From: Saururus chinensis
Taxonomy: Eukaryota; Streptophyta; Magnoliopsida; Piperales; Saururaceae
Length of the DNA stretch: 64,000 bases
Direction: 5' to 3'
NCBI GenBank assembly: GCA_035235625.1
Contig: CP141148.1
Coordinates: 28,769,057-28,833,056, forward strand
The notes beneath the pieces are model-generated. The model saw only the letters and a list, made by a program, of their open reading frames with translations, searched no databases and was not told the DNA's origin. Below, in pieces: positions 13,900 to 46,140 of this stretch. Positions within the stretch are counted from its first letter, which is position 1. Each line of letters opens with the position of its first letter. The translations under genes were made by a program, and so were the position numbers.

Positions 13900-13904
13900 T
13901 GTTT

Positions 13905-14195: not shown

Positions 14196-14379
14196 ATGAT
14201 TGTGTTTCTCTATGATGGAAATATTCACCATTGTTAATAATGCATGTGTATGAGAAAATATTGTGCCTAGTTTACACAGGTTACGTAGGGATAATTAAGA
14301 TTATGTGACACATGTGAATATGATTTATTATACATGATTTGGTATAGTATGATTGAGACACTTCTCGTGCAAGGTAAAT

Positions 14380-19035: not shown

Positions 19036-19099
19036 TCATGAACTATTTCCGAGGAACGCTAAACATGAAGGCATTAATTTTCGTGAATGAATCAAATAT

Positions 19100-19442: not shown

Positions 19443-19838
19443 TTCTCCCACTTGGTCCGAATGATAATTAATCACGATAATATAACAAGATAACATAAGG
19501 TGTACACAATTATCTATTCACATTGGTTACATAATACTATCATTAAACAAATCAATAATATGAGTCATGGCGGTTCTATGTCCTTAAATGACATAGTCCC
19601 TTCCATGTACCACAATATTAAAATCTGCTCAATATAGTGTTCAAAAGAGGAAATCATAAAAGTCCACATAATGTCTCTACTAATAGAGATTAATCCTGTC
19701 ACAAATATATATTCATTCACATCGATGCACATAATAACTAAGACAGGAAAATTTAGAAATACTTTATTGATATCAAAATGTCATAGAGCATCATCATCAT
19801 AAATAAAGCATAATCCATCACAAAATAAATGTTTACAA

Positions 19839-22800
19839 TCATGGATTATTTTCAAGACCCATTCTATTGGCATGTTCAATAAAGGTCTTTAGAGGTAATC
19901 CTTTCGTTAATGGATTTGCAATCATAAGATTAGTACTAATTTGCTCTATAAACACTTTTTGTTTCTGCACTTCTTCTTTAACAATAAGAAACTTTAATTT
20001 CATGTGCTTTGCTCCTTTAGAGTACTTGTCATTTTTTGAAAAGATAACTGCTACAGAGTTATCACAATAAATTTTCAGCAGTCTATGAATGGTGTCAATA
20101 ATTTCAAGCCCTGAAATAAAATTCTGCAACCATAAAGCATGAAGTGTAGCTTCATAGCATGCCACAAATTCAACCTCCATAGTGGATGAAGCTATGATAG
20201 ATTCTTTTCCACATTTCCATGATATAGCTCCTCCAGCAAGCATGAATAAGTAGCCAAATGTGGACTTTCTATCATCAACACATCCAGCAAAATCAGAATC
20301 TGAGTAGCCAATGACCTCAAAATTTTCAGACCTTCTATATATGAACATATGATCTTTTGTTCCTTGCAAGTATCTCATGACTTTCTTTGCAGCTTTCCAA
20401 TGATCAAATCCTGGATCCTTTTGATATCTTCCTAACATACTAGTGGCAAAACTGATATCTGGCCTTGTACAGGTTTGTGCATACATTAAACTTCCAACTG
20501 CAGATAAATAAGGAATTCCCTTCATTCTTTTCCTTTCCCATTCATTCTTTGGACATTGCATAAGATTTAGTTTATCCCCTTTCTGAATGAGAACTGGACT
20601 TGATGAGCAATTTTCCATTCCAAATCTCTCTAAAATCTTTTCTATATAGGCTTTTTGAGACAAACCCAACAATCCACATGAACAATCCCGGAATATTTCT
20701 ATTCCAATCACGTATTTCGCCTCACCCATATCTTTCATTTCAAAATTTTGAGAGAGAAAGTCCTTGGTTTTATACAATTCAACGAGTTCCCAGACTTCAT
20801 TTTGGGCCATTGAGTTTAACTCATCATTCATGGCTTCAATCCATTTTTCAGAATTAATGCTTCCTATGGCTTGTGAAAATGAAACTGGATCTTTAGATGT
20901 CCCAATATCATAATCAGATTCTTGTAGATAAACCAAATAATCATTAGAAATAGCTGGTTTTCTGATCCTTTTAGATCTTCTTAAGGCTATTTGTGGTTCA
21001 TCTACTATTTGCTCATTGGTGACAATCTCATTATGGAGTGTTGAAATATTATCTTGTTGTTCCATTTCATCATGTTGTCCAACTATTGAAGGACCAACAA
21101 GTTGTAGTTCATTAGATTGTCGTTCTTGATTGATAGGACATACATCAATCATAGGAACAACAATTTGTTTAGGAGTTATGGGTAATGGGACATGCACCTT
21201 AACTTCTTTAATTACCACATTTTGAGTTGTAACACTCCCACTGATTTCACCATTTTCTAAGAATCTTGCATTACCAGTTTCAATAATTCTTGTACTATGA
21301 TTAGGACAGTAAAACCTATACCCTTTTGGATTTTTCAGGGTAACCAATAAAGTAACCACTAATTGTCCTCGAATCCAATTTCTTTTCATGTGGATTATAA
21401 ATTCTCACTTCTGCTGGACAACCCCAAACATGTAGGTGTCTTAAATTGGGTTTCCTTCCAGTCCACAACTCAAAAGGAGTTTTTGGAACTGCCTTACTAG
21501 GAACCCTGTTTAACAAATAAACAGCAGTCTTTAGTGCATGCATCCACATAGATGAGGATAAAGTGGAATTACTTATCATACTTATAACCATATCCATAAG
21601 AGTACGATTTTGCCTTTTAGCCACACCATTCTGCTAAGGCGTTCCAGGCATAGTGTATTGAGCACATATGTCTTTGCTTTCAAGAAGTTTAGCAAATGGA
21701 CCTGGGTGTTGTCCTGTTTCATCATATCTTCCAAAGTATTCGCCACTTCTATCAGACCTTATGATTTTCACCTTTCTATCTAATTGTCTTTCAACCTCAG
21801 TAATGTATACCTCAACGGTATTCACTGCTTGAGATTTATTATTTAACAAATAGACATAACCATAACGTGAAAAATCATCTATAAAGGTGATAAAGTACTT
21901 TTCTCCACCAAAAGATGGAACATCAAAAGGCCCACAAATATTTGTATGGACTATCTCAAGAGGTTCCTTACTCCTTGTGGCACCCTTCTTTGTGTGTTTG
22001 GTTTGTTTTCCTTTAATACAATCCACACACACACCAAGATCAGTAAAATCAATATTATGAAGAATCCCATCTTTTACTAATTTTTCTATTCTTTCTCGGG
22101 AAATGTGTCCCAATCTTCTATGCCACAAGTTTGAGGAATTTTCATCAATAAAGCTACGTTTTGCACCAACATAAGTATGCAGGGAAAGCAAAGGAAGGTA
22201 AAAATAATCATCAAGATTAAATTTATATAAGCCATCACATAAAATACCAGAACCAACACATGAAGCATTCTTAAATAGGCTAAAACACTTATTCCCAAAC
22301 TTAAATGTGTATCCATCAACATCAAGTCTCGATAATGAAACTAGATTTCTAGAAACTGAGGGTACATAAAGAGTTTCAAATAAATCTAAGTGATGTCCAC
22401 TATATAGGAATAACTTATAAGTACCAATGGCTTCAATGGGAACTTTATCCCGATTTCCCATGAACAGAAAGTTCTCCTTTAGGTTTGTGGTTCGGGTCGT
22501 AAGGAATCCCTGCAAAGTGTTGGAAACATGAGTGGTAGCTCCTGAATCTACCCACCAAGTATTAGAAGGAACTTCAGTAAGGTTAGATTCAAAAACATAA
22601 ATTAAATCAATACCTTTCTTTTGGAACCATTCCTTTCTTTTCTGGCAATCTTTCTGAAGGTGGCCAAATTTTCTACAAAAATAGCACTTCAAGCCCCTTT
22701 CCTTCTGTTGATTGTTGTCTTTATGGGCAGCATCATTCGCTTTAGGAGCCTTCCCTTTAGAGCTTTTGAATTTCCTTTGTTTGCCTTTAGCATCTTGAGA

Positions 22801-23412
22801 AACCATGTGGATTGAGTTTTGTTCCAATGCTTTAAGCCTTGACTCCTCTTGCACAAGCATATTGGCCAATTCATTTACATTCCATTTATCTTTCATGGTA
22901 TTATAATTAATTTGAAATGGTCCATACTGAGGTGGCAAGGAATTCAAAACAAACTAGACAAGAAAGAACTCATCCACTGACATTCCCAACGACTTAAGTT
23001 GTGCTGCTAAATTCGTCATCTCTAGAACGTGCTCATGCATACCACGAGAACCATCGTACTTCATCGTGGTCAGCTTAGCCATAAGAGTCCCTGCAAGGGA
23101 CTTATCTGGTGACTTAAAACATTCTTCAACCTTTTTGAGAAATTCTTTGGCATTGTCAGTTGGAGGCAATGTAGTCTTAATGTTATTTTCAATTGTCATT
23201 CGCATAAACATAAGACTTAACCTGTTGGACCTTTCCCATGCATTAAATAATGCCTTATCTTCAGTGCTACTAGTTTCAGTAAGTGCAGCAGGTTTTTCAG
23301 TTCTAAGAGCTACATCAAGGTCCAATACACCAAGGTTGAATTGGACTTGCTCTTTCCAGTCTGAAAAATTAAGGCCATGAAGCATAGGAATGGAGGAAGC
23401 ATGTGAATGCAA
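19839..23412 (-). mobile_element. Copia-2 gag and pol region, minus strand
   Basis: The frame order from high to low coordinates is: gag with a UBN2-like domain (about 23412-22800), a CCHC knuckle (about 22690-22640), the aspartic protease site (about 22560), a GAG-pre-integrase H-R-x-L-G-H motif (about 22105), the integrase core (about 21990-21650), and reverse transcriptase and RNase H sequence down to 19839. The frame is interrupted in a few places, so the element is not autonomous. It is nevertheless well preserved compared with Copia-1. Confidence 0.85.
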
Positions 23413-23439
23413 AGAAATAGGAATCGATGCTGCAATTAA

Positions 23440-24499
23440 ATAATAATGCTCAATACATTAGTGCTATGAATATGACATAATAAAACACATGAAAAATACA
23501 TTAACAATGAATAACATAACTTTGATCTACCTTTGGGAATAATCTAATGTTATGCTATTCAACTATTATGGTGTTCCCTATCACCTTAAGAATAATTAGC
23601 CAAGTACACACATTAAGTCGGTTCACTACCTTTGGGTTAGTGTTCCAACCTAATGAATAGCATTTTCAAATTATTCTTCACAATTCAATGATTAATAGAA
23701 AAGTGGTGCACCTTTGGGTCAACCATCATATCTTAGTAATCAAAGAATTAAAATTTGCTAAATTATTCTATCTCTAACATTAGGGAAATTATGCTAGGAT
23801 ATCTTAATATGCTTATTTTCTAATTACATTCCAGTTGGGCCACTTGGTGATTATCCAATTGTATCTTAATATTAGAAAATTAAGTCATTAGAATAATTTT
23901 GCATAACATCATAAGTGAACATTTATATGTGCATAAGTAAATATTTAGAACATAAATTTATTTATAATCATTTCCTAATGCGTAAGCGGAAGCAAAATAG
24001 ACTAATAATAAATAAATCAAACATAAAGAACATCCCCTTTCATTTATTTATTCATCTATATATTTAAGCTTGAGTGCATAAATTATTAATTGCACATAAA
24101 TAAACCAAATTATAAGCATGTGTATTAAAATTTATAATAATAAATAAATCATTTGAACACATGAACTATTTCATACATAAGGCTAATAATAAAAGGAAAT
24201 AAGACTATAATACGTTGACCATTTTAATGGGTACATTAACCCAGTTCAAAGACTTATAAAGCTATCATCTGGGCATTAACACATTTTAGTCATCATATAC
24301 TTTTAAAAGTACCACCCAGCCATAACCAACGTTACTTTAAAAACATCTTCACGTGAGGTTTTTTTTTGTCTTTATATGAAATCGAAAATCAACTTTGCAC
24401 CTGACGACTTCTTCTTTTAAGCCTCACTATAGTCGTCCTTCTTCATCAAGGCACTTACAGTGAGTTCAAAATGGGAAAACACTCAGCGAACCAGGGAGG
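23440..24499. other. Leader-like spacer between the two Copia-2 arms
   Basis: AT-rich, non-coding DNA. Around 23520-23890 several loosely similar phrases of the kind CTACCTTTGGG(T/A)A recur. It probably holds the untranslated leader of the element plus unassigned sequence. Confidence 0.4.
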
Positions 24500-26449
24500 A
24501 GAAAATTTGGCCACCTTCAGAAAGATTGCCAGAAAAGAAAGGAATGGTTCCAAAAGAAAGGTATTGATTCAATTTATGTTTTTGAATCTAACCTTACTGA
24601 AGTTCCTTCTAATACTTGGTGGGTAGATTCAGGGGCTACTACTCATGTTTCCAACACTTTGCAGGGATTCCTTACGACCCGAACCACAAACCTAAAGGAG
24701 AACTTTCTGTTCATGGGAAATCGGGATAAAGTTCCCATTGAAGCCATTGGTACTTATAAGTTATTCCTATATAGTGGACATCACTTAGATTTATTTGAAA
24801 CTCTTTATGTACCCTCAGTTTCTAGAAATCTAGTTTCATTATCGAGACTTGATGTTGATGGATACACATTTAAGTTTGGGAATAAGTGTTTTAGCCTATT
24901 TAAGAATGCTTCATGTGTTGGTTCTGGTATTTTATGTGATGGCTTATATAAATTTAATATTGATGATTATTTTTCTGCTTCATTGCTTTCCCTGCATACT
25001 TATGTTGGTGCTAAACGTAGCTTTATTAATGAAAATTCCTCAAACTTGTGGCATAGAAGATTGGGACACATTTCCCGAGAAAGAATGGAAAGATTAGTAA
25101 AAGATGGGATTCTTCATAATATTGATTTTACTGATCTTGGTGTGTGTGTAGATTGTATTAAAGGAAAACAAACCAAACACACAAAGAAGGGTGCCACAAG
25201 GAGTAAGGAACCTCTTGAGATAGTCCATACAAATATTTGTGGGCCTTTTGATGTTCCATCTTTTGGTGGAGAAAAGTACTTTATCACCTTTATAGATGAT
25301 TTTTCACGTTATGGTTATGTTTATTTGTTAAATAATAAATCTCAAGCAGTGAATACCGTTGAGGTATACATTACTGAGGTTGAAAGACGATTAGATAGAA
25401 AGGTGAAAATCATAAGGTCTGATAGAAGTGGCGAATACTTTGGAAGATATGATGAAACAGGACAACACCCAGGTCCATTTGCTAAACTTCTTGAAAGCAA
25501 AGGCATATGTGCTCAATACACTATGCCTGGAACGCCTTAGCAGAATGGTGTGGCTGAAAGGCAAAATCGTACTCTTATGGATATGGTTAGAAGTATGATA
25601 AGTAATTCCACTTTATCCTCATCTATGTGGATGCATGCACTAAAGACTGCTGTTTATTTGTTAAACAGGGTTCCTAGTAAGGCATTTTCAAAAACTCCTT
25701 TTGAGTTGTGGATTGGAAGGAAACCCAATTTAAGACACCTACATGTTTGGGGTTGTCCAGCAGAAGTGAGAATTTATAATCCACATGAAAAGAAATTGGA
25801 TTCGAGGACAATCAGTGGTTACTTTATTGGTTACCCTGAAAAATCCAAAAGGGTATAGGTTTTACTGTCCTAATCATAGTACAAGAATTATTGAAACTGG
25901 TAATGCAAGATTCTTGGAAAATGGTGAAATCAGTGGGAGTGTTACAACTCAAAATGTGGTAATTAAAGAAGTTAAGGTGCATGTCCCATTACCCATAACT
26001 ACTAAACAAATTGTTGTTCCTATAATTGATGTATGTCCTATCAATCAAGAACGACAATCTAAGGAACCACAACTTGTTGGTCCTTCAATAGTTGAACAAC
26101 ATGATGAAATGGAACAACAAGATAATATTTCAACACTCCATAATGAGATTGTCACCAATGAGCAAATAGTAGATGAACCACAAATAGCCTTAAGAAGATC
26201 TAAAAGGATCAGAAAACCAGCTATTTCTAATGATTATTTGGTTTATCTACAAGAATCTGATTATGATATTGGGACATCTAAAGATCCGGTTTCATTTTCA
26301 CAAGCCATAGGAAGCATTAATTCTGAAAAATGGATTGAAGCCATGAATGATGAGTTAAACTCAATGTCCCAAAATGAAGTCTGGGAACTCGTTGAATTGC
26401 CCAAAGGATACAAGAAAGTGGGTTGCAAATGGATCTTTAAATCAGATAT
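24500..26449 (+). mobile_element. Inverted partial pol copy inside Copia-2
   Basis: Plus-strand sequence matching about 22680-20770 of the same element in reverse. It runs from the knuckle through protease and integrase to the beginning of the reverse-transcriptase region. By protein comparison the two arms are nearly identical, with scattered single-residue differences. The copy stops exactly where the right LTR begins, at a short shared phrase, AATCA-ATAT. The arms are separated by about 1.8 kb. Confidence 0.85.
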
Positions 26450-26793
26450 CGTACAAATTAATTTATCTATTACTATCTACTATTTTTTTCAAAAGAACTA
26501 GCGCACCTGGTTCCATTCCGAATCGACGAATCTTCATAGGATAGGTTTCTCTCCCTTAGCCCTTTCGTTCTGACGATTTTCACTTGAGATGGATCATCAC
26601 CGTCGTGGTTTTTTTTTTTTTGTCGGGCAGAGAGAGGACCATCTCCTCTATTTTTTATCTTCACGTAACCGCTTCCATCAAGCGGTTACAACGTTCACTT
26701 TTGTAAGACCAATCGTAAACAAGATAGATATACTCATTATTATTTATTAATTATCATATGGGACCACATACGGGACCAATGAAATTGTTTACA
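26450..26793 (-). repeat. 5' LTR of Copia-2
   Basis: Direct-repeat partner of 19100-19442. It ends at GTTTACA on the plus strand, followed by unrelated flank. Confidence 0.85.
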
Positions 26794-28293: not shown

Positions 28294-31200
28294 TTATGCG
28301 CCGATTGAATAACCATATTTGAAACGACAACGACACTCACTATGGAGGACTTTTATAGATTTATCCACTAATGCAAACGATTTGGAGTAAGTCTCCTTGT
28401 ACTGGGCAACACTGTAACTTCCATGAAAATAGTTGAGAGGATCAAGATTTTGATGGCGTAGAGTCGCCGCAGCATGCCGGCAAGGCATCATCAGAACCTG
28501 CCAGCGACGACAAGAGCAAGTTTGCTTCTCAAGGTCCACTACGTATCGCTTATCATCATAATCAGACTCAATGCCAAATGCTGTCGAACTATCCATGTGA
28601 ACCTCCAACTTCTCGAATGCCCACGTCCACAAACTTCGATACCGTTCCGCTGAGGGAACTATAGTATTTACCCACTTCAAGCTCTTTTGATACCTTATTT
28701 GATAAAGATTTGCTGCTTTTACTCGGATTTCCTCCATCATTGAAAGGATTGGTGAATCAAGCACACATACAATTGTACAAAAGAAAACGTCTTGTGAGTC
28801 ACGATCTTCTTCCATCATATATATATCTACAGAGTCCAAGTCCAGTGCCAAATAAGCACCCTCAAAGTAGGAGTAGGACCAATGTCTGGGATTCTTGTTA
28901 CAAAGCCAATCATATGCTTTTTTAGACAGCCTACTTATCATATCCATTTGGACCTCAAAGTCTTCCCTCGTTTCTGCAATTGATGCTTCAAAAATTCGGT
29001 GCATCAAATCTATCTTATTAGTTTCCTGGTCACAGCCACAGACTTGGGAAATGAGGTGCTTTCGGTCGTAGAATATATATGCCCGTGGAAAGATATCGCT
29101 GATCGCCTCATACAATAACTTCTTCTCGCTGTCTATTGATACTGTTAATCTCGTGCTGCTTGTGTTTTTTAAAATGCTTCTAAGCTCGGTACAGAACCAC
29201 AACCAACTCTTTTTAGTTTCTGCCTCACATACTCCAATTGACAGCGGAAATTTATCGCCTTCCCCATCACCCCCCAAGGCAACATAGACTGCATAAGGGA
29301 AACTTGTACGTCTTTCAGACTCAATATAGATAATAGGCCGTGATTGACGATAGCTATGAAGCGGAGCGGAATATGCAACAAACAGTCTAAATTCATCACC
29401 TGTCTTAGAGAACTTCGCCACACTTTCAGGATTCGTTTCTCGTATTTTCTTGCAATACTCTCCAACCTTTTCCAATTGATTGGATTTCAGGACAGGATAA
29501 AAAGATTTGGAGTAAGTCTCCTTGAACTGCGAAATTCTGTAAGTTTCATGATAATAGTTGCTAGGATCAAGATTTTGATGGAGTAGAGCCCTCACAGCAT
29601 GGTTGCAGGGCATCTTTACACGCTGCCAGTAACCACAAGAGCAAGTTTGCTTCTCAAGGTCCACATCGTTTCGCTTATGTCTATTCTCAATGTCAAATCC
29701 TGTCAAACTATTCATGAGAAGCATATTTGATCTAGAGTCAATGCCAAAGTATGGCAAACAACGAGTTTTCTTTGTGAATAAATCTTCGTCCCATGGGTTT
29801 AATAAAATTTTGCAGCCATTTCTCCCATTGATATGATTTATCCACATCAAGCTGTTTCGATACCTTCCACGATAAATATTTGCAGCTTCTACTCGGATTT
29901 TCTCCATCATAGAAACGATTGGCAATTCTATAGTGCCAAGGAATTCGTCCTTATAATCCAACCTCTGTGTCCAATTTGGCAATTCTCCCCCAAAATGGGT
30001 GGCGGACCAATGTTTGAAATTCTTGTTACAAAGCCAAAAATATGCTTTTTTAGACTTCGTTCTTATTATATCCATTTTGACGCCAAAGTCTTCCCTCGTT
30101 TCTGCAATTGACGCTTCCCAAATTAGGCCCACCAAATCTTCATTTATCAATTTCCTGGTCACAACCAACGGCTTGGGAAATGAGGTGCTCTGGCGTAGAA
30201 TATATATGCATCAGGAAAGACATTGCTGATCGCTTCAGACAATAACTTATTCTCACTGTCTATTATTACTGTTAATCTAGTACTGCTTGTGCTTTTTAAA
30301 ATGCTTTTAAGCTCGGTACAGAACCACGACCAATTCCCTTTAGTTTCTGCCTCACTTACTCCAATTGACAGCGGAAATTTATCGCCTTCCCCATCAACCC
30401 CAAAGGCCAAATAGACTGCATATGGGTAAATTGTACGTTTTTCAGACTCAATACAGATAATACACCGTGATTGACGATAGCTATGAAGCGAAGCGGAATA
30501 TGCAACAAACAGTCTAAATTCGTCGCCTGTCTTGGAGAAATTCGCGACACTTCCAGGATTCGTTTCTAGTATTTTCTTGCAATACTCTCCAACTTTTTCC
30601 AATTGAAAACTATTCATCTCCATAGAATCAGACCCTGTTAAAGATTCGTCAGATAATTCTTCGCATGGATTCTGATCAATTTCCGAAAGCATACCGTGTT
30701 GGTTTTCGCCAGAGTCTAAATCTTGACTCTGTCCACCAAACTCAGTAACCACATCTTGAGAAAATACACCGTCCATCAGATGATTCTTCCCTGAAGCCAA
30801 GTGCTCGCCCTGTCCAATTGCACCAATACACTTTGATAGGTCCCCCAAACCTTCAAACTCCTTGTCCACTGCATCGCCCTGTCCAATTGTACCCATTTCC
30901 AATAGCTGCCGGTGCTGGTTTTCATAGGCCACATCCTGACTATGTCCACCAATTTCGATGGCCCGTTCTTCAGAAAGCACCTTCTCTAAAAGTTTCCCCC
31001 TGGATGCCAACTGCTTGTGCTGCCTAACTCTGTTCCCTCTGCCAACACTGCCCAAGGGCTCAGATTGCTTTTGTTGCATCTCCTTACTAGCTAACTTTCT
31101 GGCCCTCCAAACCTTGTTGTAATTTAAATCTATGCCATATCGAGATTTGATGTCCTTGATAATATCCTTTATTTCTTGATTTTCCTTGTGGTGAACCATT

Positions 31201-31597
31201 ATAAAGTTGCTAATCCACTTAATAGTTGCGTGCTCATTGATCGTCTCGGGTAATGCCACACATGTGTGATTTTGCAAGGACCGGATTTGAAAGGTACCTG
31301 AGGCACCAATCTTACGGGCATGCATATGCCATGAACAATTTTCATCTGCGCATCGAAGTGTATACCGCATTTTATCTGTCTTCAACCGCTTCAACTTAAT
31401 ACGCTGACAAATTGCTTCCTCATGCACTGCATGCTTAAGTGCAGCTAAATCAGGAAATTCTAGACCCACCTTCAAAGTAGAACTTGAGGTTGGTAATTCA
31501 TCATGAGGAAATTTAGGTAATTCTTGGTTATCCAGCTCAATTGAAATTTGTTCAAATGGATTACGTGGGCCCTGTGCTAATCCATCTTGAGGATCCT
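28294..31597 (-). CDS. MuDR/MULE-derived protein exon with two MULE-SWIM modules
   Basis: The exon starts after a clean acceptor (GTTTGCAG) at 31597; no ATG precedes it in frame, so it is an internal exon. Order: a MuDR DNA-binding zinc domain with C-x4-C...H-x-C (about 31480-31100); a low-complexity linker with two sets of G-x-S-Q-D repeats; MULE-SWIM module 1 (about 30608-29481); module 2 (about 29480-28294). Both modules keep the zinc ligands C-x-C...P-C-x-H of SWIM, but the usual first catalytic motif D-G-T-H-L is replaced by I-E-S-E in both, so strand-transfer activity is doubtful. One frameshift near 30160-30200 links the two frames. The family acts in the nucleus; domesticated members (MUSTANG, FHY3/FAR1 kin) are transcriptional regulators. 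No Mutator terminal repeats were seen. It is either a domesticated gene or a dying copy. Confidence 0.75.
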
Positions 31598-31730
31598 GCA
31601 AACAACTTATAAAAGTTTCACCTCTTGCTAGCGTTTCACCCTTGTCTCCCTCATTAGCTCCCTCTAGAATAGTCCTAATACCGAAACATTGATAACATGA
31701 GGACTAAATCAAACTGGGATTTGAATCACG

Positions 31731-32007
31731 TGAGTAGGTGGATTAGTCAATTCTATACAAGAAAAATTAAAGATAAAAATAAAAACAAAATAACTTAAAT
31801 ATAAAATAAAATAACTAACTTGATTCTAATTTTTGACTTTTTAATCTTCTCTGAAGTACACAATAGTAAACTAATCTTGATAGAATTAGGTGACAATATT
31901 TAATCTAATTCTTACTAAATAAGGAGTATAGCTATTAATAATTAAAATATGAATTAAATCTAACCTAAAATAGGAATGTAATCTAATTTAATTTTAAGGT
32001 CATAACA
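31731..32007 (-). repeat. 3' LTR of the GH3-bearing element
   Basis: Minus-strand start TGTTATGACC, end ACTCA; 277 bp. It aligns along its length with 38665-38941 (shared phrases such as AAAGTACACAATA and ATCTAACCTAAAATAGGAAT). Confidence 0.8.
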
Positions 32008-35000
32008 TTCTACCCCGTTTTTGCTCCACCTTGTCCTCAAGGTAGTCGTCAATATGTTCATTGAATGATTTGCCTAGCTTGGACAAAGAGTAGACCCGTA
32101 GTGTAGGCAAAAAACCACATGTAACCTATATGGGACCCATGTGAAACAGGCATATGCTGAGTTTATTTGCTTTGACGAAAACCCGAATGAGAAGAGTTGT
32201 ATCGAGATTTGCTTGTCCAAAGCTTGGCTAAAGCTAGAACCGTTATATTATGACATAGGCGATTGGACTTGGATCGAGGGCAGTGAGGAGTCTAACGGGT
32301 CATGGAAACAAAAGATGAATGCTAGAGCTATATCCAGATAGCTTCCCTGGCCAATTCCCTATGTTTCTTGCTTCTGAGATGGTTAACAAAGCTTGTGTCT
32401 GCCAAGGTATTTTCAAAAAGGTCCATCATGAATTTGACATGCAATGTCCTCTTCATTGCATCATCAATTCGGCTCATGGGGATAACTTTTTTCTTCACTA
32501 GGTCGGTAAGATCATCAATAAAGCCAGTGTGGTTGTATAGAACCATAATCATGTCCATACCAGCACTGACTCTAGTGTTAACAAAGTATTAGTAGTTAAC
32601 ACTAGGTGAAGACATAATTTTGTCAATACCGTGCCAATCTGAGATAACAAAGCCCCTGAAACGAAGCTTATTCTTGAGGAAGCTGGTGAAAAGATCACGA
32701 TTGGCATGCATTTTCTTCCCATACCCACTTGAATAAGAAACCATGACAGTAGAAACACCTCTCATGAATGAGTTAAAGTATAGAGGCATATGAATGCTCA
32801 ATCAGTCATGGTAGTCGATGATGGTCTTGTTCTCATTGATGCCATTGGTTGTTCCACCATCCCCAAGATAATGCCTAGCACAAGCAACCACATTTTTCTA
32901 TCCAGCAACATAAGGCACGCTCTTGCGAGAATTAGAGGCAATATCTACCCGTAAACGAGAGGGTTTTCACTATAGCTCCCATAGCACCGACCCCAATGGG
33001 GATCTCTGCATACTGTAATACTAGGTGCAAAAACATGAGGAATGTCAGTTGTAAGATCTCTAACTTAATTGGGTTTAATTTCCATTTTAATTATGTGAAT
33101 TGTGTGGGTTTTGTTTAATTGTCAATTTGATTTGAATTTTGAGGTTAAGGGTCAATAATTATAGCTTTAATAAGATTTAATATCTTTTATATAAGTTTAA
33201 GTGTCAAACTTGATTTATCCAATTTTTATGAATTTTATAAGATTTTATCATAATTTTTATTTATTAATAGTGCAGACACCTCGTCGTGGGCCTTGTCCAT
33301 GTTGGATGGCGTGTGACCCACTTAACCTTATAAACTTCTATTAATTTATTTTAGTGGATTTTTAAGTAATTAAATTTATGTTAGACCAATAATAACCACT
33401 TAGAGCGTTTTTAACCAATTTTATAGCCAAAAAGTTTATCTATACAGCCCAAAACTCTTACTATTTAAAGAAAACTTTAATTATTTACCCAAATAGAAAA
33501 GAGTTGTGCTAGGAGAAAGAAGGTGTTCTACCCCATTTCCCAAAGAAAAAATAGATTAATGTATGTTTTTTTGACCTAATCACTCATAATCTTTCGATTT
33601 TAGTCTTAATCCTCTGTATCTCCATTTCCCCCAAATTCATTATTTATTTCTTCTATCAAAAATCTTAATTTTAATTTTTATTTAAAATTCTAAATAGGTA
33701 ATTTCGTTTTTAACCAAAAGATATTCTAGATATACCTATTTTCAAGTTGATTTGAGGCTATTAGTCAATTTTAATTAAGTTTTAATAAAAACTCTGATTT
33801 TTGGGTAGGATTTCTTAAGTATTGAAACTTCTTCGTACATTCAAAGGCTTCATAGAGGTATTATATTGTTTAGTTTTATCCATTGAAATGCATGATTTTA
33901 GATTTAAATAGGTTCATGCTTCATTTTGATCTTTAATGGTAATTTATTAAAAAGAGTAATATTTATGGTTATTTTCTTATTATTAAGCATAAAAATAATT
34001 AGATCTATCATGTTCTAGAGTTAGATTTTAATATTATGATATTTTATGGTGATTTTAAAATTTTTCTTAAATTTTAGAATATTTTTGGTTTGAATTTCAT
34101 AAGGTTGAAGACGAGCTAGGAAAAAGTGGACTTTGAAGGGAGTTTGAACGAACCACATAGGCTATTGAACAGCCAGGCATTCGAGCCGATCGAACGCCAA
34201 CACTATAGGTTTGATATTTAGTCTATTTTTTTTGTAATTTCAGTCATTTCTTGTTCTCTTCTCATAAATCTAATTCGTTATGACTAAAATGAGTTACTAT
34301 TATCTATAAATATTATTATGATTGCATGAAGACCATCTTTAAATTATAATTTTGCTCAAACATGATTAGGACTATATTTGTTTAATTTTAGTATGATATT
34401 CTATTTATCTTAAATCTATATTTCATAATTTCTTCATAATTACTTGATGATTTCAGTAGGTTTTAGTTATGATCATGTATGTATACTTGCACATGTTATA
34501 TTAATTCCAGGTGGATTATATTTCACATGTTTTAGCTTAAGCATGGTTATGTTTATACTTGTCTAAGTCTAACATAATATTATACTTCTCTTAAACTTAT
34601 ATTTCGATGTTTTCATCACATTTACTTCATAATTCTAGTAGGATAGGGCTATGATAAAATTATAAATGATTGTGTATATAACATTGATTATAGTTTATTT
34701 ATGTTCACATGTCTTAGCTTAGGTTTGAGCACTACCACTTATATACACTCTTGTGTAGATATTCAGGAGTTTATTTGACCGAGATGGACCATGTTTCATG
34801 CACACGGGGAGTGATTTGAGCATGTTTACTTATACTTGAACTATTTATAATTTTCTCATGTATGTATCATGTGACATGCATCATCAAAATAATTTATAAA
34901 TAAGAATTAATGGTGATTAGCCGAGATTAATCTATTGGATGCTATTAGATGTCAGACTAATCATTTGGAGGCTTATCAAATCTATTTTTGCATCTGAAAA

Positions 35001-35157
35001 TACATGGTTTTGTTTTGAGTTCCTTCGAGAACATGGTGCATCCCCAGGTTGAGATGAGTTGATTGCTATGTGAGTTAATTTATTAAGTTATTTGGACCCT
35101 AAAAATCCAAGTTGTTATGTCTGCGTGCATTGGCTTACCATGTTACTCTAATTTTCA

Positions 35158-35460
35158 TTTTGTAGGAATTTGGACCCTCCCTGCAAGGGATTGTCCTTAG
35201 CGAGTACACTGCTTTAGTTTTTCCATTGTAAGGAATTCAAACTTTCCCCATAAGGTCTATCCTTAGCGAGTAGTCTGCTCTAGTTTTCCTTCGTAGAATT
35301 CAGACATTCCTTTTTAAATATTATTTTTAGTGAGCAGGGGGTACCTTCATAGTTCGGGAACCTAATTGAAACCTTTTAGTTTTTCTTTTTATAGGAATTC
35401 AAACCTTCCCTACAAAGGGTTGTCCTTAACGAGCGGGTTGATTATTTTCTCAATTGTAAG
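35158..35460 (+). repeat. Tandem array 1 of family C (about 65 bp units)
   Basis: Four degenerate units containing TAGGAATT, a TTCC-CT phrase, GTCCTTAGCGAG and CTGCTCTAGTTTT. They correspond to the array at 13905-14195. Confidence 0.7.
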
Positions 35461-35713
35461 ACATTCACCATTAATTATTACATGTGTGTAGGAGATGCTG
35501 CTCATTAACACAGGTTGTGTAAGAATGATGAAGCTTGTGTTACATACAAAATTATAGTATAAATTTGCATAGATATCTAAGATGGTGTGGTTGATATACT
35601 TGATGTTGAAAGGTGAATGTTCTATTAAGAAACGATTATGCATGATATGTTTATAATGAGAAATGATTCATATAGGATGTGATTGTAATAATGAGTTTTA
35701 TATGTTTACATAT

Positions 35714-35716
<3 letters not shown>

Positions 35717-35748
<32 letters not shown>
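35717..35748. repeat. (AT)n microsatellite
   Basis: About 16 uninterrupted AT dinucleotides between the two tandem arrays of the family C LTR. Confidence 0.95.
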
Positions 35749-35752
<4 letters not shown>

Positions 35753-35765
35753 GAGCTATAGATGA

Positions 35766-35965
35766 ACCCATGATGTATAGGTGGCATGATACGTGCTTAT
35801 GAAATGTGGGTTATAACATGATATATAAGTGGCATGACTATGTGCTAATAAAATATGTTATATATAACATGATATGCAACTAACATGAGTACATGCTTAA
35901 GGAATGTAAATTATGATATGATGCACAAGGGGCATGGTTATAAGTGATTGTATCATGTGAATAGG
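35766..35965 (+). repeat. Tandem array 2 of family C (about 50 bp units)
   Basis: Four units built on ATGATATATAAGTGGCATGA, then a GTGCTTATGAAATGT-like phrase. It holds the same position within the LTR as the 57-bp array of family B, with different unit sequence. Confidence 0.65.
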
Positions 35966-38664
35966 CACGGTAAATGATTATGTGATGAATGCTATGTTGA
36001 TTATGTCTGTGATGTCATTATAAGTTTATTTTCAGTATTAAAGCCCTTATTGATAATTAGTTCGCCCTTTTTATTTTGTGATTTTGTTTTGGGGTTGCAT
36101 GTTGTGTCATGCAAGTACTTCATATGGGCTCTATGTTGAGCATAAGGATCACACCGGTTATTGAGGGACTTTAGAGATGATTTGTTTATGTTAGTATTAT
36201 TTCTATGAGATGTTGAGATTATACTTTTAACACTAATTCACATTTTGTTCCCCATTGTTAGCTTAAACTTAGTTAACCATTATGAGCTTTTTTATGTTAT
36301 TACTAGCTGATGTAGGTAAGTGTGAACTAATACTTCAATTAATTGTCTTTTATTTGCTCTATTTTATTTTATAGAACATATTCATGTGTCACTCTATTGT
36401 ATGCTCACCCATGGATAGGTTATATCTTCTGCAACCCAACTCAACTTGGTCACACAGTGTAACTGCTTACTCCTTAGACTGGGTTTGGCTTGAGGTAGCG
36501 TATGCCGAGACGTGACACCGGTATCTCAAACTTCAAGAGAAGTGGCAACACCAATCTTTTGAACATCTCTAGGTCCCTAGTAGCTTCGAGTCCCATATTG
36601 TGAGGGAAAATTGCTGCTTTGTAAACATTATTACGCTCGTGAACATCATCAATCTCATAAATCAGAGGAATACCTAGATGGGTCGAGAGACAACCTTTTT
36701 AAAAGTCATTCACCATCTTGATCCAATCCTCAGGAGAGGCCTTGGGAGCAGGCACGCTCCCCCCACCACTCAGAACACTCCCACTAAAGTACTCTTTCAT
36801 AATTTTGGGGGTGGTAGTTGTTGTATCCACTCAGGTCACTTGCCAGTCTTCTTTGCTAGAGTCATCCTCTTCATCAGATCTTTAATCCTCATAATGATGG
36901 GTTGCGCTGGGTCTTCGTACTTTTTACATAAACTGCCTCTCCAAATGTTGCCCAACAACTCAATAGCAAAAATCCCAACAAAAGAAGTTTAGAGGATTCC
37001 ATTTTGATCCAACTACTGGAGATCCGTTTTAGTTTGTATTCATGCCGAATAAATAGAGTCTCGGTAGAATTTTGGGTGGAGGAGCAAATTCCATTTGAGA
37101 GAGAATCCATGTGTGGCAGAGGAATTCGGAGCGGGGGGAGGAAGTGGGAGGTCCGGGGAATGGCCTAGCATCCCCATTGACAGAGAGCGTGGTGGTGGAG
37201 ATATTGGAGGGATGATCAAAATCTCTTTGTCCATAAACTTGTGAACAATCAAAAAATAAATAATTTCTTCCAAAGATTTTCTCCGTTACTTTTCTTGAAT
37301 GTAAGCAATTCTCTAATAGAGGAGATCTAGGGATGAGACTACGGATTTTTCATTCTCAGAATCATGATCAAATTGAATCCACTCAAGCTGCTAATCAACA
37401 GCTGCAGGAGCAAGATGTGTTTGTGTCTAGTATCTAAAACAGAAATTGACCTATTGCATATTCAAATTCCCTAATTGTTGAATTCCTTTACTGCAAATAA
37501 AGAGGTATTATACCAAGCTTTGAGACATAAGCTAAAGGTGAACTCTTGAAAACTGCACAGGAAAAATTAAACTCTGCATCATGTGAAGGCGAGAACAACT
37601 TGATATTGGAAGGGGCTCTCAACCCTCCCAAAGAAGGAAGTGTCATCGGCCCATCAAGGAAAATGCCACACATCTGCATCTCGGACCCAAAATCCAAGCT
37701 TTTGCTCTGTAGCCGAAATTGGGTGGGCGAAGGAATGGGAGATGCAATCATAGAAGAGGGAGAGGGGGCCAAGGAAGGATGAGGGCGTCTACGGCAGATC
37801 TAGAGGTGGTCAGCATGTTCATGGAGCATGAAGCATGTTCGTGCTAGGTCGATAGAATGATTCATGACTAGAATAAAAAGGTTGATTGAAGAAGGAGGTT
37901 GCACAGCCGGAATAACTTTCTCAGCATGGATCGCAGCCAGGATGCTACGTGCGACTACAGACAAAGCCAAGGAGAAGAAATCGCCATTGCCAAAAGAGGA
38001 GGATGTTAGTCTGCCAAAGAGGAGAGATTTTGTGGTGTTGTGAGCATCAACTTGGCCGGGGATGAAGGCATGACCAGTGGGAAGAGGAAGACAGATTTTG
38101 AGGCTGGAGTAGATGGGGCATCCACCTGTGTCAATCTGAAACTTTCTCTAGGAAATGAACTAAAGCAGAGATGGGGGGCTCTGTAGGACAGATTTTGCGG
38201 GGGAGCCATGACTGCCGGATCCACCATGGTGACGATGGCTTGCGCAGATTTTGCGAAAGTATGAATATTTGGAGGAACCTTGACAACAGACAAAGAACAA
38301 AGGGTGGCGTGGCAATCCATGGACTATGTAAAGCAGTTTGCTGGATGTAGAGATGAACTTGAAATAGTGGCTATGACGGTGAGTGGCGGATCAATGGCAG
38401 GGGCTGACGATGGGGTATCTTGCAATGCAGATGTGGCCGAGGGTGGTGTGGAAGCAACTGGCGGTTGTGTAGAAGCAATCGGTGGCAGTAGTGAAGTAGT
38501 GAAGAGAATAGAGTTTGCAAAGAGACGCGTTGCTCGTCAAAAAGACTTGTAATTTTATCCTTGAGTTGGGCGAGAGAATCTTTGTAAAATTCATGGTAGA
38601 TGCATGGGAGGGTGAGAGGGTTATGAGTAGGAATGGGTGTTGTAGGGAACTCCGATACTAATAA

Positions 38665-38941
38665 TGTAGACTGATATCTACACAAGATAAATTAAAGATG
38701 AAATTATAAATAAAATAATAAAAATAAAATAACTACTCGATTCTGATCTCTAACTTCTTAATCTTCTTTAAAGTACACAATACATTGAAAAAATCTAAAC
38801 TAATCTTAATAGAACTAGTAGACAATCTTTAATCTAATTCTAACTAAATAGGGAGTATTGCTATTAAAAATTAGAATATGAATCAAATCTAACCTAAAAT
38901 AGGAATCTAATCTAATCTATTCTAATTTTAGGGTCATAACA
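38665..38941 (-). repeat. 5' LTR of the GH3-bearing element
   Basis: Minus-strand start TGTTATGACC, end GTCTACA; 277 bp, the same length as the partner at 31731-32007. A TTA spacer and primer-site-like TTAGTATCGGAG follow at 38664-38650. Confidence 0.8.
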
Positions 38942-40388
38942 AAATGATTGTTCATTAATGTAAAACATAGTTATTTAGTCAATGGTTTTTTCAAAATTGT
39001 ATAAAATTTTTATTTTAAAAAATCAGAAATTGTTCAATGCTATTGATTGCATTCACATAGACAAAGCACTTATTGATTGAATGCACATGAGCAAAATGGA
39101 AGCCAATCATTTAATTACACGTTTTTTGGGTCATTTGAGCTCCATTCTCTATGAAAGTTCAAACCCCTCTCCGTTTTGAGCTCTTCTACTTATTGCAAAC
39201 TTGGATTTGAAGGATTACACACAGATTTAGAACATACTTTGTCATATGTGAAAGTATTAACTTATTTTTATGATCAAAACAATGTCAAAATATGCATAAT
39301 TTTGAGTTGAAGTAGTGTTCAATGGTAATGGTGAAGTGGAACTAAAGATTCAAAAGGTGTTTATAAGGTAAAAATATGTACACACATCACACACAATCCT
39401 AGGAGTGATGGAAATTGTCATATAAAAATGTAGGAGAATGTAGGAGACATATGGATGAAAATTTGCAAAAGAGTGTGATTTTGTTCATAGTGCACTTGAA
39501 GTGGCTGCGGATCAATTAGAGCTAGTCTCAACTAATTCTAGTACACTAAATGATTGATTATTGTATAGAACGATCGATCGCATATAAGTACAATTTTAAA
39601 CAACACATTGAATAATAGATCGCTATATGGAACAATCAATTTTTTCAATACATAGTTGTCATAAATATGTCATAGAGATTTATATACTACAAGAGAATGC
39701 TAAGAGAATTATTCTTTCAAACTTAGGTTAAAGAAGATGGAAAAGAAACACACTACCCATGTGACCTCTAAGTTACCTCACCAAGTTTATGAGAAGAAGA
39801 AGAGGGTATGGGTGAAGAAGATTGATCTTAAAGGGTTGAATGAATGATTAAGAAAAGTGAGCAAGAGCATCTTAGATTGCTTTAGGATAGGTTGGCTAGG
39901 CAAAACTAAGGAGCTTATCATATTTAAATAAAGAGACTGAGCTTTGAGTCTAATTTAATTCTTTTAATCTTTTGGACAACACAATGGTTTTTTTTTGTTT
40001 TCCTTGCATTTTTATTTGTTTTCATATTTTCTTCAATTCAAAGGTTTTGAATAAAAAAACACAAAAAATAGAATATGATCTAAACTACAAAAAATAGCAT
40101 ATCTTTTGCTTGTCATTGCAATTTTCTTTGATTTTGCATTGGTTTTGATTAGTTCAGCTCTTGAGATATAATGACATTAATTTTATTTTAAACTTAAAAA
40201 TAACATAATTGGTAGTCAATGTACCTTAACTAAGATAAGGATACACCAAGGACAGTGAACATCAATTTAATTTTTTTTGCTTAATGTTGTAATTTTAAAA
40301 TTTTTGAAATATGCACACATTACGTTTAAACTTAAGTTACTTTCATGAATGAAAATCAAGAAAGGATTCTTCAACATAAAGTGACTTA
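38942..40388. other. AT-rich intergenic or intronic DNA
   Basis: No gene recognised. Around 39540-39640 two related phrases, GATTATTGTATAGAACGATCGAT and a diverged copy, hint at a small decayed repeat. It may lie in the long intron proposed between the PB1 and MULE exons. Confidence 0.35.
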
Positions 40389-40710
40389 GGGGCTGTTTGG
40401 ATACAGATTATTTGGTGTAGCAAATCTTGATTTATCTTAATATAATTAGTTAAATTTAACGATGAATCACTTTTATGTTTGGTAATGTAATAATGTGAAT
40501 CTGATTTACAAGATATTTGTAGATGAATTATGTAAATCTCCTCTAGAGGAGATTACTTGCGAGAGTGAAAATTAACTACAAATCTTGATGAATCTATCAA
40601 TTCATTGTGAATTTGATACATTTAAATTTTTTTACATCCAAACATAATTCAGAGGATTTATACTTAATCTTAAAAGAATCAAACTCATGAATCTTCATCC
40701 AAACAGCCGC
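40389..40710. mobile_element. Tourist-type (PIF/Harbinger) MITE
   Basis: The element is 322 bp long. Its left end GGGGCTGTTTGGAT and right end ATCCAAACAGCCGC are inverted, and it is flanked by TTA at 40386-40388 and 40711-40713, the PIF/Harbinger target duplication. The two halves are imperfectly complementary throughout, and the centre holds a perfect 20-bp palindrome (40535-40554) around CTCTAGAG. It has no coding capacity. Confidence 0.85.
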
Positions 40711-40713
40711 TTA

Positions 40714-41604
40714 GACATTTGGATTTTAGTGGGATCATAATTATCAAATTAGAGGATCTTATGTTAGATTTTTATTTAGAATTTAAAAGAAAAAATATAT
40801 GTAATGTAATTCAATGATTATAAATTTATTTACTTTAATATCTTTTAGTCAATAGAATCATCCTCGTAAAGAATATATGGAAGTTTTACCTACTTAGGTA
40901 GCCTAGGCTAGTGTCAAGCTCTCATCCACTTAACATAAAAAATAAACAAATAAAAATAAAATAAATGATGTAAGTAGAGAGGATTCAGAAAAAAGCCAAA
41001 CTCTAAAAAAATAATTTGAAGAAAAAAATGACTCAAAAAAAGGCATGGGCATATTTTCTATGAGCTTTCATAATTTTTAATTATTTTTAGTCAAAACGTG
41101 TACATAGATTCTAGCTAAAATGAGTTAAACATGAGAACTTAATTTTTATTAGGGTTCAGATAAATTTGTCTCAATTTGAATAATAGTGATTTTACAAGAT
41201 TCAAGATTAAAAGAGAAAAGAGTTAGAAGGATTAGTGGTTTCTCCAAAATTAATAAAAGAGAATTAAAGTGTCAAAAAGACAAAAAATAAAATTGACAGT
41301 CAAATACCATTGGAGTTGACTAATCTAAGGTAAGGAATGAATGAACATAATATGTAGATGCACTTAAATTAAAGAGAAATTAATTAAAATTTGTCAAAAA
41401 GACCTCAACTATATTTATTTTTATTATTTGATTTTTATTTTGAGTTTTGATTGTCATAAAAATCTTGTTTCAATGGAAAATGTCTTGGAATAATTTTAGG
41501 AACTTTTTGTATTCTTTAATATTTATTTTTTTTGAAAAACTAAAAAATTAAAATTTTCTCAAGATCGATTAATCAATTGCCATGATGATCAATCGTTGGT
41601 CATG
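40714..41604. other. AT-rich DNA, nothing recognised
   Basis: Very AT-rich sequence with A-runs. No frame, no terminal repeats and no array of note. Confidence 0.4.
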
Positions 41605-42339
41605 TTATCCTGCTGAAGCACTATTTTTTAAAAAAAGGTTGAACCCCTTAATCACCCTCATTTTACTTCTTAGAGAGGTGTGGAATAGAGAGTAGAGGCG
41701 AATTAGCTTGGCTTTGCCCAAAGAAACACCAGATTTCACCATTCGATTCAAGTTTTTCATAACGTCAAGGTATGCGTTGAACTCAATTTTGACTTTTAGT
41801 GGATTTTCAATAGATTTCAATGCCTTTTGAACTGATAGGATTGGAATCGCTGCTTTAACTTGTGTTTCTAACTGTTGTGTATGGGTGTAAAGGCGAGCTG
41901 GAGGGGAATCCGCAATGAGCACGTCATAGAGTGATTAAGACTCTACGATCGTGAGAGGTTGTACAACGCTGGGCATCAGGCTTGGTTGATGCGTTGGGCT
42001 CTACTGGCATGACTGGGCTCATGGCAGAACGAGGGTGGGTAATAGGGAGCATAAGGGTCATTAGCTACTAATGGTGTAGATAAGGGGGTCTACATAGGGA
42101 TAATAAGGGAAAGGGTGAGAGAAGAAGAAAATTAGATCATAAAATTAAATAAAAAGCTAACTTATTTCTATTATCTATAGTAGAATGAGCTAAATAATAG
42201 AATTTATAAAAAGATAAAATAGTAATCATAGTAAAAGAAGGTAAATAAGACCAATCCTAACTAAAGTAGAAAATCGACTAATATAAAAATATAAAATTAA
42301 TAACCTAATTAAAATCTTAGTCTAATTAGGAATATAACA
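41605..42339 (-). mobile_element. LTR (42075-42339) and leader of a decayed LTR element
   Basis: Read on the minus strand, 42339-42075 starts TGTTATATTCC and ends in ACA. It resembles in plan the LTRs of the GH3-bearing element (TGTTATRA start, GTCTACA-like end). It is followed by ATTAGTAGC, in the place of a primer site, and by a 105-codon open stretch (41922-41605) of unknown, possibly gag-like, character. No second LTR was found. Its outer edge coincides with the start of the duplicated PB1-gene block at 42340. Confidence 0.45.
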
Positions 42340-44590
42340 TGTAGCTAATGAAAAATATGTGCATAAGAGTGTAAACCTAATAAGAGTTCGTTTCTAAAGC
42401 TTAAGTTATTATGATACATTCATTATTTATTTCATAGTATAAACAAGCCACCCAAAAGTTATGTTCCAACGAGACACAACCATTGTTGTGTCCTCATTAG
42501 CTTTCCTACATCACTAAGGATAAATGATGACAACGATATAGTATTATTGAAAAATGAAGCCCCTCCTTTATCCAGCCCACCCCGTTAAGATAGTGAGCTA
42601 GGCTAGATAAAATAAGGGGATGGGAGACTTCTTATCTTTGTTGAAATAGTAAATTCTGAATACTGGATACTTAGGCACTTACCTCTCAAGATTCCTTGTA
42701 TTAGCCTGGGCAGCTGATACTTTTGATGTCTTTGCGGTTATATAGATCTCAATAGGAAGGTGGCCGCCACTACCTTGAGATGCCACAATCATATTTCTCA
42801 CATCTTCATCATCGCTAATGCTAACTAGATTTTCCAATTCCAAACCAGGGTACCTGTACTTCATCTCAACACTGGAGGAAGATGGGCTGCTACGTGCCTT
42901 TGCCAGTACTTTAGATAGAAGATCCTCATAACCAGTGGCAGGTTCGACGCGTACGATTCGCTTGTCCCCTCCAGTGTAACAAATCTTGCTTTCCTTGACA
43001 AAATCCCCACCAAAGCAACAGAGCAACGGCACCGATTTGTCCATTACTCTTTCAAAGCATAAACTTTCTTGCAAAAAATTAAGACATGGAAACTACTATG
43101 AGAATTGGGAACAATCAGAAATATTTTTCAAGTTCCATCCAAATGTTAAGAATGGATTGTCATCTTATCTTCCCCTGCGTTAAATCATAACAAGAACAAT
43201 AACAAAAATGTGCAGAAATGAAATGACAGAAAGAGGAGAAAAAGGCCAACTCAGATAAAAAAGGAGAATTCCACTACCGGATTTATTTTGTATTTCACTA
43301 AATCCTTGACCATATGAAGCATCAAGACAAAGTATTTGATTGAGCTGGAAACGGAGGAAGAAAGGGAAACGTCAGCTAATTACTTGCACGAAAGCTAAAA
43401 AATGCATAATCATAGAAGAAGCAAGAACTAATATAAAGAATAAAATCAAATATCGTACCCAGTTTTCCACCTGACTTCAAAACCGCAGCAAGTGAAGAAG
43501 TGGGGAGGACGATAGGTTTCCTGACTGGTTAATCCAGGCTGGAAGAGGACGAAGACCTGGACTTGAGGCAATGGCGGGTTTCATATCAGGATGGAGAAGT
43601 CTACCGGAAGCTACGTAGAAATTAAATTCGGTGCTGCTACAACGCTGACTCCTCTGGGCAGGTCCCATGTCGGCAACGGCTCTGATTTCTCCCTCCGTCC
43701 AGTTTTAATCGTCCAAATTTAAAAAAATAACTCCTACACTCCCGTTAATTCAGTCGCGTCACGTTGCATTTAAGCATGACACCACGTTAAATGAGACTAT
43801 TAATATAGAACACTTTTTATCCCTTATCAAAATGTTTGAACGGGACCACAGACAGCCAGCCGTCTTCTAAAGAAAATTTGGCTCCCCGTGTCCCCACCGA
43901 AGTCTTCTTTTTTTTACAGGGATGCGATCGTGTTTTTAAAATTTTCAGATTTATCCTCTGCCCTTGTGATTTTTTTCGGTCGTCTTCAATTGTTTCAGAG
44001 GTATTGATACATCCATTGATCCCTAGTTCGCCTCGAGCACCTCTATGCGTCTCATTATCAGACCTGTCTTCTTCAACTTACATTTTCATTGAAAATATGC
44101 ATGGAGATAAGGCTTTTGTGACAGACACCTTCGGTAGCTCTTTCCTTCTAGTCTAGGCCAAGTCTTGTGCATTCTTCTACCAAGGAGAGATCAACAAGAG
44201 CAACCTATCTTCATCAATAGTTGATCGTTCTTGAAGGGCTCTCTTACACATTTAAATTAGAATTTAGATATCCTAATCATAGTAAGTAGTTACTATCATG
44301 GCTCCAAATTTATACATGCATTTCTAAATTTTCTTTAGAGAAAGATGTCATAAAATCTCATGTATGATGCAATGGAATACTTTTTAAGCAATGAATATTT
44401 GAAATTAAACATGAAAACATTGGAAGCCTGATACCACATTTTGTACAAAGCAAAGTGAATGGTATTATATATACATCACTAAATATATCCAAGTTAATTT
44501 AAAATAATTATAGGATCTACGTTGGATAATTGTCTGTCACATGAATACTTTGACCAATAATTGCAATAAATACATACTCTCGTGCCTAAT
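42340..44590 (-). repeat. Segmental duplication, copy 2 (5' end of PB1 gene)
   Basis: Aligns with 9424-12405 from TGTAGCTAATG through the PB1 exon, the leader intron and leader exon to the phrase CTCTCGTGCCTAATAA near 44590. It lacks the roughly 700-bp block present in copy 1. At the corresponding point it has a short unrelated joint near 44190-44240. Confidence 0.85.
42683..43044 (-). CDS. PB1-domain first coding exon of a MULE-type gene
   Basis: ATG at 43044 (M-D-K-S-V-P-L-L); the frame runs about 120 codons to the donor GAGAG|GTAAGT at 42683. PB1 features: C-C-F-G-G-D-F-V-K-E, Y-T-G-G, K-Y-R-Y-P-G-L-E-L and the acidic S-D-D-E-D-V-R-N-M-I loop. PB1 domains mediate protein pairing through basic and acidic faces. 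A TTTTTTGCAAG acceptor lies just upstream of the start, implying a leader intron; a leader exon is likely at 43480-43690. On the same strand, 11 kb further on, lies the MULE exon (31597-28294), the kind of partner expected in MUSTANG-like genes. The donor leaves phase 2 whereas the MULE exon opens in phase 0, so another exon must intervene or the pair is not one gene. Confidence 0.6.
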
Positions 44591-46140
44591 AAACAAAACT
44601 AAAGATAGAGAAAAAAATGAAGCTACAAGAAGAAACCACATTATGACCTGCCAAAACCCCAAGAGCAAAGCACTTCTATAACAGATGTTGAGTATATGAA
44701 TACACTTAATAGGATTATAAACAAAAATAGAATAACCAACATAATGATGCAATAAAAAGCTGGTCAAGTCAATTATGTCTTTCAAAGTCATAACTAGACT
44801 TAAAGAAAAAAAAGAATGAGAAGACAACAAGTTTTCTAACACTTATTAGCTACATTTAGGAGTCCAATTACCCTCACTAGATTATAAACTACTACAACTC
44901 AACTTTAGCCTTTTCTCAAAGCCAATATCCAGCTCTATCCACGCAATGAAGCAAAGGCTCATAAGGGCTTATCGACCCAAGTGGTTGAGATCGTGTTGTG
45001 CTAGACCATTCATCGTTTAATGTTATAATCCATTTAAACCTAACTCGTAAGGGGAGTGGCTCTACATACAAAAAAAATTTGAGAGCCAGAAGAACATGAT
45101 TTTATTTTATACCATACTCTTCTATATATATGCCTAAAATGACTCACTTTTGTAGCCAACTAGACACCAAAATCCTTTGTCCTAGTATTAACTACATTGG
45201 TTAAGGATGACTATCAATCACAAAGATTCACTCATGCATAGGGTTATTTACCCCAATATAAGACATGCATATTATCATGCAACTACACATCTATAACACA
45301 TAAAAACTAAGTCTTTATATTACTTATAAATAGCATATACTTCATTAGAAAACATGCTTGAATTTCCATGAACTGATGCACCATCAGTGACATCACTGAC
45401 ATGTCGGCCAAGACATTGATGGTCATTGACATTGGATATGCTGCAGAAGCCCACCTCACCAACACAAATGCCACACTATCAAAGATGACGCAACATAATG
45501 CATGAGTGCATATACTATTCATCTTCTCCCATCACCAATGAAATCACTAATATGTCAGCAGTCAAGTTGATGATTGGGAAGAAAATATACAAAGACCGCG
45601 CTAGTTCTATGAACATTTTCTTCCAAACGCAATATCAATTTCCATTTACAAACCAAGTTTCTTACTCTTGAAATAAGAAATGAAATTGTATGCTCAACAT
45701 TAATGAAAACTTCATTATTACACCATGTATGATGAAAGTTCTCCAATAAACACAAATGCACATGTTCTAAACTATCCAAAACTTGATAAAAGGATGAAGA
45801 ACATGAAATTTCAACAATAAAATTATATAAGAGGTGGCAATCCAACCTCAACTATGCTCTGAACCTTCTTCTTAGTGTGATTCCTCCTACACTTATGCTC
45901 TAAAACACCACCCTCACTTGGACTTCACTCAACTTCCAAAAATCCTAAAATTCCAAGATCTCCTCATTTTAATTGGGCATAACCGCCTCATAGTGTTCCA
46001 AACAACATAACTTCCCATGATTTTTTATACAAGAACCTACCATTTCGCCGAAGCAACCCTCGACATGTTGATGCCTATTAAAAATTAAAACAACTACTCA
46101 CCGATGTGTGAATCCTCACCAGACAAAAAATGAGACATTA
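44591..46140. other. Intergenic, no recognised gene
   Basis: AT-rich sequence without a supported frame, array or transposon end. The end near 45900-46140 may already belong to the promoter half of the family D repeat. Confidence 0.3.

Follow-up and report, generated by a model that had tools for sequence, protein, structure and literature searches.

Plant retrotransposons with long terminal repeats (LTRs) can carry pieces of host genes, and abnormal template switching and host-gene capture by such elements have both been described (PMC13317346, PMC1950507, PMC5664825, PMC3726574). In maize, Bs1 took up pieces of xylan endohydrolase and beta-1,3-glucanase genes besides a proton ATPase, according to a 2026 review (PMC13317346). 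Captured genes have been counted at 672 in rice, 1,343 in sorghum and 424 in maize in one study (PMC3726574), and 1,398 to 3,898 genes were found inside LTR elements in a survey of six species (PMC5664825). The statement in the first-pass annotation of the locus treated here that host-gene capture by LTR elements is known, Bs1 included, is borne out by these accounts (PMC13317346, PMC3726574, PMC5664825). The locus lies in Saururus chinensis, in a window of 64,000 nucleotides (assembly GCA_035235625.1, contig CP141148.1, positions 28,769,057 to 28,833,056; all coordinates below are those of the window), which is plant DNA holding several retroelements. On the minus strand, at 38941-31739, we find what is probably a decayed non-autonomous LTR element, about 3.7 kb long once a later insert is left out, in which the interior gave way to the front part of a GH3 beta-glucan exohydrolase transcript from the host.

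The element is framed by two direct repeats, both of which start with TGTTATGACC on the minus strand and have the TG...CA ends of an LTR retrotransposon. Extended to these ends, the 5' LTR (38665..38941, minus, closing with TCTACA) measures 277 bp and the 3' LTR (31739..32007, minus, closing with AATCCA) measures 269 bp. In a local alignment (38941-38677 against 32007-31752) the two are identical in 219 of 248 ungapped columns (88%; Kimura two-parameter distance, K2P, 0.128), and the alignment scores 335, whereas none of 200 mononucleotide shuffles scored above 84. At a rate of 1.3e-8, as used in the six-species survey (PMC5664825), this divergence corresponds to about 5 million years, which is a rough figure. 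A 22-mer common to both LTRs was located with up to three mismatches allowed at these two sites only in the window (chance expectation 0.00); it did not occur in prokaryote genomes, and viral contigs held no relatives of the LTR or of the GH3 piece. An earlier description of two inward-facing LTRs of 277 bp is thus right as to the pair and its inward signals, but one of the LTRs is 269 bp long.

Just inside the 5' LTR, separated from it by four bases, lies the 12-mer TAGTATCGGAGT (38649..38660, minus), which resembles a primer-binding site (PBS). It agrees in 9 of 12 positions with the PBS for initiator tRNA-Met. Of 9,139 minus-strand positions sampled, 24 (0.26%) have a fit at least as good within 10 offsets, so the primer-site-like sequence proposed beside one LTR is present. 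At the other end, the end piece of the element (32008..32339, minus) contains CTTGAGGACAAGG, translated as LEDKV, as well as a stretch rich in purines ahead of the 3' LTR. The sequence CTTGAGGACAAGGTGGAGCAAAAACGGGGTAGAA, with the LEDKV reading, immediately precedes the LTR; GGAGCAAAAACGGGGTAGAA is rich in purines but interrupted, and may be a polypurine tract. LEDKV is an ending known from plant Ty3/gypsy polyproteins. A purine tract and this ending had been placed beside the second LTR, and a purine-rich stretch and the LEDKV reading do end directly at it. No gag-pol coding region was recognized in a Pfam scan that covered the leader in three minus frames and the end piece in one, and the sole open reading frame of at least 110 amino acids in this check was without a Pfam match. 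Such a region is absent in non-autonomous LTR elements.

The leader itself (37003..38648, minus) may be a retroelement leader or gag remnant, perhaps including the GH3 5' untranslated region (UTR). Its G+C content falls near 37615, from about 0.5 upstream to 0.36-0.37 over 37165-37614, and this drop could mark where the element leader meets the GH3 5' UTR, or could stem from an additional insertion.

The region between leader and end piece is taken up by a GH3 remnant, a broken pseudogene that reads in the direction of the element. An ATG at 37002-37000 opens a stretch resembling a signal peptide (36920..37002, minus), as judged by eye. It is followed by an upstream coding piece (36518..36919, minus), which corresponds to residues 5 to about 139 of barley ExoI, and by a downstream piece (32340..33049, minus), which corresponds to residues about 140 to 384. 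In a frame-tolerant alignment, residues 5-384 of the about 605 of barley ExoI are covered, with codon identities of 72/134 upstream and 134/238 downstream of the insert that separates the pieces. Among solved structures, barley ExoI is the best relative, and the longest piece matches it at E 6.3e-62. Pfam recognizes the GH3 N-terminal domain (Glyco_hydro_3, PF00933) in three pieces, of which two score above the curated cut-off. By sequence, the cargo is related to plant GH3 beta-glucan exohydrolases. Ahead of the 3' LTR the C-terminal part, which would start at about residue 385, is missing. The frame is damaged by six in-frame stops, five frameshift steps and one deletion of 11 codons in the downstream piece, and there is an additional frame change between the start region and the remainder; a sixth frameshift step was placed inside the insert by the alignment and was discounted.

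The alignment requires no codon insertions, and over about 380 codons the sole intron-sized gap is the 3,468-bp insert. Apart from this insert, the GH3 copy is thus without visible introns. The same-strand, intronless N-terminal half of a GH3 enzyme reported by the first-pass annotation stands in its identity, its strand and its start region, where the ATG and the signal-peptide-like stretch lie just upstream of the barley residues; it is not continuous, however, and the insert splits the coding sequence. Intron positions of plant ExoI-type GH3 genes were not found in the literature, where the term GH3 mostly retrieves an auxin family. Potato beta-xylosidases are GH3 enzymes as well, of a different branch. 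Their genes have five to eight exons in one report (PMC12736900), which was not used as proof. When the barley ExoI stretch was compared with prokaryote genomes, 271 of 327 candidate stretches were confirmed; the 80 of these that were kept are all bacterial, and the matches are therefore uninformative on plant introns and were not used.

The insert (33050..36517, plus strand, 3,468 bp) runs from TGTAAGATCT to AGACGTGACA, with TGT...ACA ends, and interrupts GH3 between two codons. Its flanks, TCAGT and CCGGT, share three of five bases and may represent a 5-bp duplication that has decayed. A portion of the insert of about 1 kb has a relative at 13885-14900 of the window (nhmmer E 4.6e-26). The alignment is a loose one, with a mean accuracy of 0.56 and a bias of 51.8 bits, and takes in a 57-bp tandem array; in control searches, neither the reversed window nor any of 20 first-order resamples of the insert (20/20) gave a match at E <=10. 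The array of the related repeat consists of about three copies, at 14406-14585. Because it is related to another repeat of the window, we read the insert as an LTR-type insertion, putatively a solo LTR left by a later event, and it may be Del/Tekay-like.

The same interruption can be explained in another way, namely that a genomic (DNA) fragment of GH3 was taken up, or that the insert goes back to a native intron that was retained and grew; in either case no spliced mRNA would have been involved. The position between two codons, which has one chance in three, and the GT that follows the upstream exon suit this account, and retroduplicated genes with introns still in place are reported in a pepper study (PMC5664825). 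However, no GT-AG boundary rejoins the codons, as no AG is seen by eye at the minus-strand border where an intron would end, and the LTR-type ends and the relation of about 1 kb to a dispersed repeat speak for an insertion. A retained intron is disfavoured on these grounds, and we hold the uptake of unspliced DNA to be very unlikely in either form.

An LTR element with a sense-oriented, 5'-complete and 3'-truncated GH3 between primer site and pol end is the simplest reading of the locus, and it is partly supported. From the arrangement of these parts we infer non-autonomy of the element, an mRNA origin of the cargo and template switching. Minus-strand reverse transcription proceeds from the 3' end of the RNA to its 5' end. 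During minus-strand cDNA synthesis in the virus-like particle, reverse transcriptase would have copied the element RNA through its 3' LTR and pol end and would then have moved over to a GH3 mRNA packaged in the same particle, at a point near codon 385 of the mature enzyme. The GH3 mRNA would have been copied towards its 5' end until a run-off near that end, and a return to the element RNA in the leader would produce the order leader, 5'-complete and 3'-truncated GH3, pol end. The chimera would have entered a MUSTANG-like gene by integration in an intron and decayed there, and the second LTR-type insertion, at 33050-36517, would have come later.

A further reading is that a processed GH3 copy made by a long interspersed nuclear element (LINE) was inserted into an ordinary LTR element, and such insertions exist in plants. 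LINE copies, however, are usually 5'-truncated and end in poly(A), whereas the GH3 remnant has its 5' end without the 3' part, and no poly(A) tract is seen at its end near 32340. With the 5' end retained in the cargo and the 3' part lost, template switching onto GH3 mRNA fits better than LINE retroposition, which we consider extremely improbable.

Several observations weigh against capture by a single element. A scan made without a positive control found no target-site duplication at the LTR ends; its ten near-matches all sit at displaced offsets, as chance would give, and membership among LTR elements rests on the LTRs and the primer site. The final ~15 bases of both LTRs align poorly, which may reflect a small rearrangement at one LTR end. 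No second copy of the element was seen within the 64-kb window, to which the search was confined. Neither the leader (stops written as X) nor the end piece has a Pfam match in the frames scanned, and the only links of the two to a retroelement are their position and the LEDKV motif. Lastly, the six stops of the GH3 remnant exceed the number expected from an LTR-based age. In an approximate simulation, in which 342 GH3 codons were mutated and one of five segments (36572-36514) was in the wrong frame, the mean number of stops was 1.45 (5-95% range 0-4) at d 0.064, half the LTR divergence, 2.79 (1-5) at d 0.128, the full divergence, and 4.78 (2-8) at d 0.25. Six stops as fresh decay are not fully consistent with this expectation. 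The GH3 sequence may therefore have begun to decay before the insertion at this site, while earlier copies of the element carried it, or the element may be older than its LTRs indicate.

The missing target-site duplication and the somewhat high number of stops would also be accounted for if the LTRs came from two different, partly deleted elements of the same family, or from a recombinant, and flanked a native GH3 pseudogene or fragment by chance. Recombination between adjacent independent insertions gives complexes without flanking duplications, as stated by Sabot and Schulman (PMC1950507). Against such an origin, the two LTRs share their orientation, the upstream one is adjoined by the primer site and the downstream one by the pol end, and no introns are seen in the GH3 sequence between them; moreover, a truncated GH3 fragment in the intron of an unrelated gene would need a separate explanation. 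We regard chance flanking as unlikely, and capture of a GH3 transcript by one element remains our preferred reading.

The unrelated gene is seen on the same strand at both sides of the element. A PB1 domain is encoded at 42679-43092, and MuDR DNA-binding, MULE and SWIM domains lie beyond the element at 28294-31703, a combination that is typical of MUSTANG genes. By eye, a donor site GAGAG/GTAAGT near 42682 and an acceptor site GTATTAG/GACT near 31675 define a putative intron of 11 kb (31675..42682, minus) across which a split codon keeps the frame, and the 3' LTR is 64 bp from the putative acceptor. The element thus appears to sit in an intron of a MUSTANG-like gene. This gene may itself be damaged: within 28294-31703 a stretch of about 1.13 kb is duplicated in tandem (89% over the best 300 nt), and the two long open frames are separated by a frame change. 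A segment of 2-3 kb is duplicated at 9423-12407 and 42339-44592, in pieces about 82-89% identical, with a PB1-domain exon in each copy.

Elsewhere in the window, a copia-type element at 19090-26793 has LTRs that are identical in 344 of 353 aligned columns. It encloses an inverted repeat of 1,900 nt (arms 20775-22674 and 24500-26399, 98% complementary) and has the GAG-preintegrase/integrase part once on each strand; the inverted repeat might be an aberrant product of reverse transcription. Glycosyltransferase-like frames occupy 58231-60203 on the minus strand, with a single weak match to UDPGT in Pfam, which narrowly misses the cut-off, and a local duplication (59818-59989/60030-60192) within the region.

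The first-pass annotation had presented a cell-wall GH3 enzyme as new cargo. GH3 cargo in LTR elements was indeed not found in print in a narrow literature search, which is no proof of its being unreported, but pieces of cell-wall hydrolases are already carried by Bs1, according to the review cited above (PMC13317346). The kind of event is known, and the GH3 enzyme as passenger may be new. Plant LTR elements are reported to have captured hundreds of genes in a single genome, and one decayed copy is therefore of modest interest. A broader view would be that the locus is one copy of an amplified GH3-carrying family, that the captured 5' half provided a secretion signal or small RNAs against parental glucosidase genes, and that cell-wall hydrolases are recurrent LTR cargo, as in Bs1; all this is speculative and highly improbable as it stands.

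Among described systems, the captured and retroduplicated genes of rice, sorghum, maize and Solanaceae share with the S. chinensis locus a host gene between LTRs, often without gag-pol capacity (PMC3726574, PMC5664825). Those sets draw on whole genomes and parental genes, whereas here there is a single locus and no parent for comparison. The template-switching complexes of Triticeae likewise rest on proposed switching between co-packaged RNAs in reverse transcription, but there two retroelement RNAs are fused and the product is flanked by duplications, whereas here a cellular mRNA is the presumed partner and no duplication was found (PMC1950507). Bs1, as the review presents it, is similar in being a short element without a full gene set of its own, with partial coding sequences from the host, including those of cell-wall hydrolases, as its cargo (PMC13317346). 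It differs in that here one captured gene is found, from another hydrolase family (GH3), as a pseudogene with stops that is known from one copy. If the capture is real, the locus would be a clear anatomical case of the pick-up of a host mRNA, with the 5' end kept and the 3' part lost as minus-strand template switching predicts, and cell-wall polysaccharide hydrolases would then be known as LTR-element cargo from two instances, Bs1 being the first.

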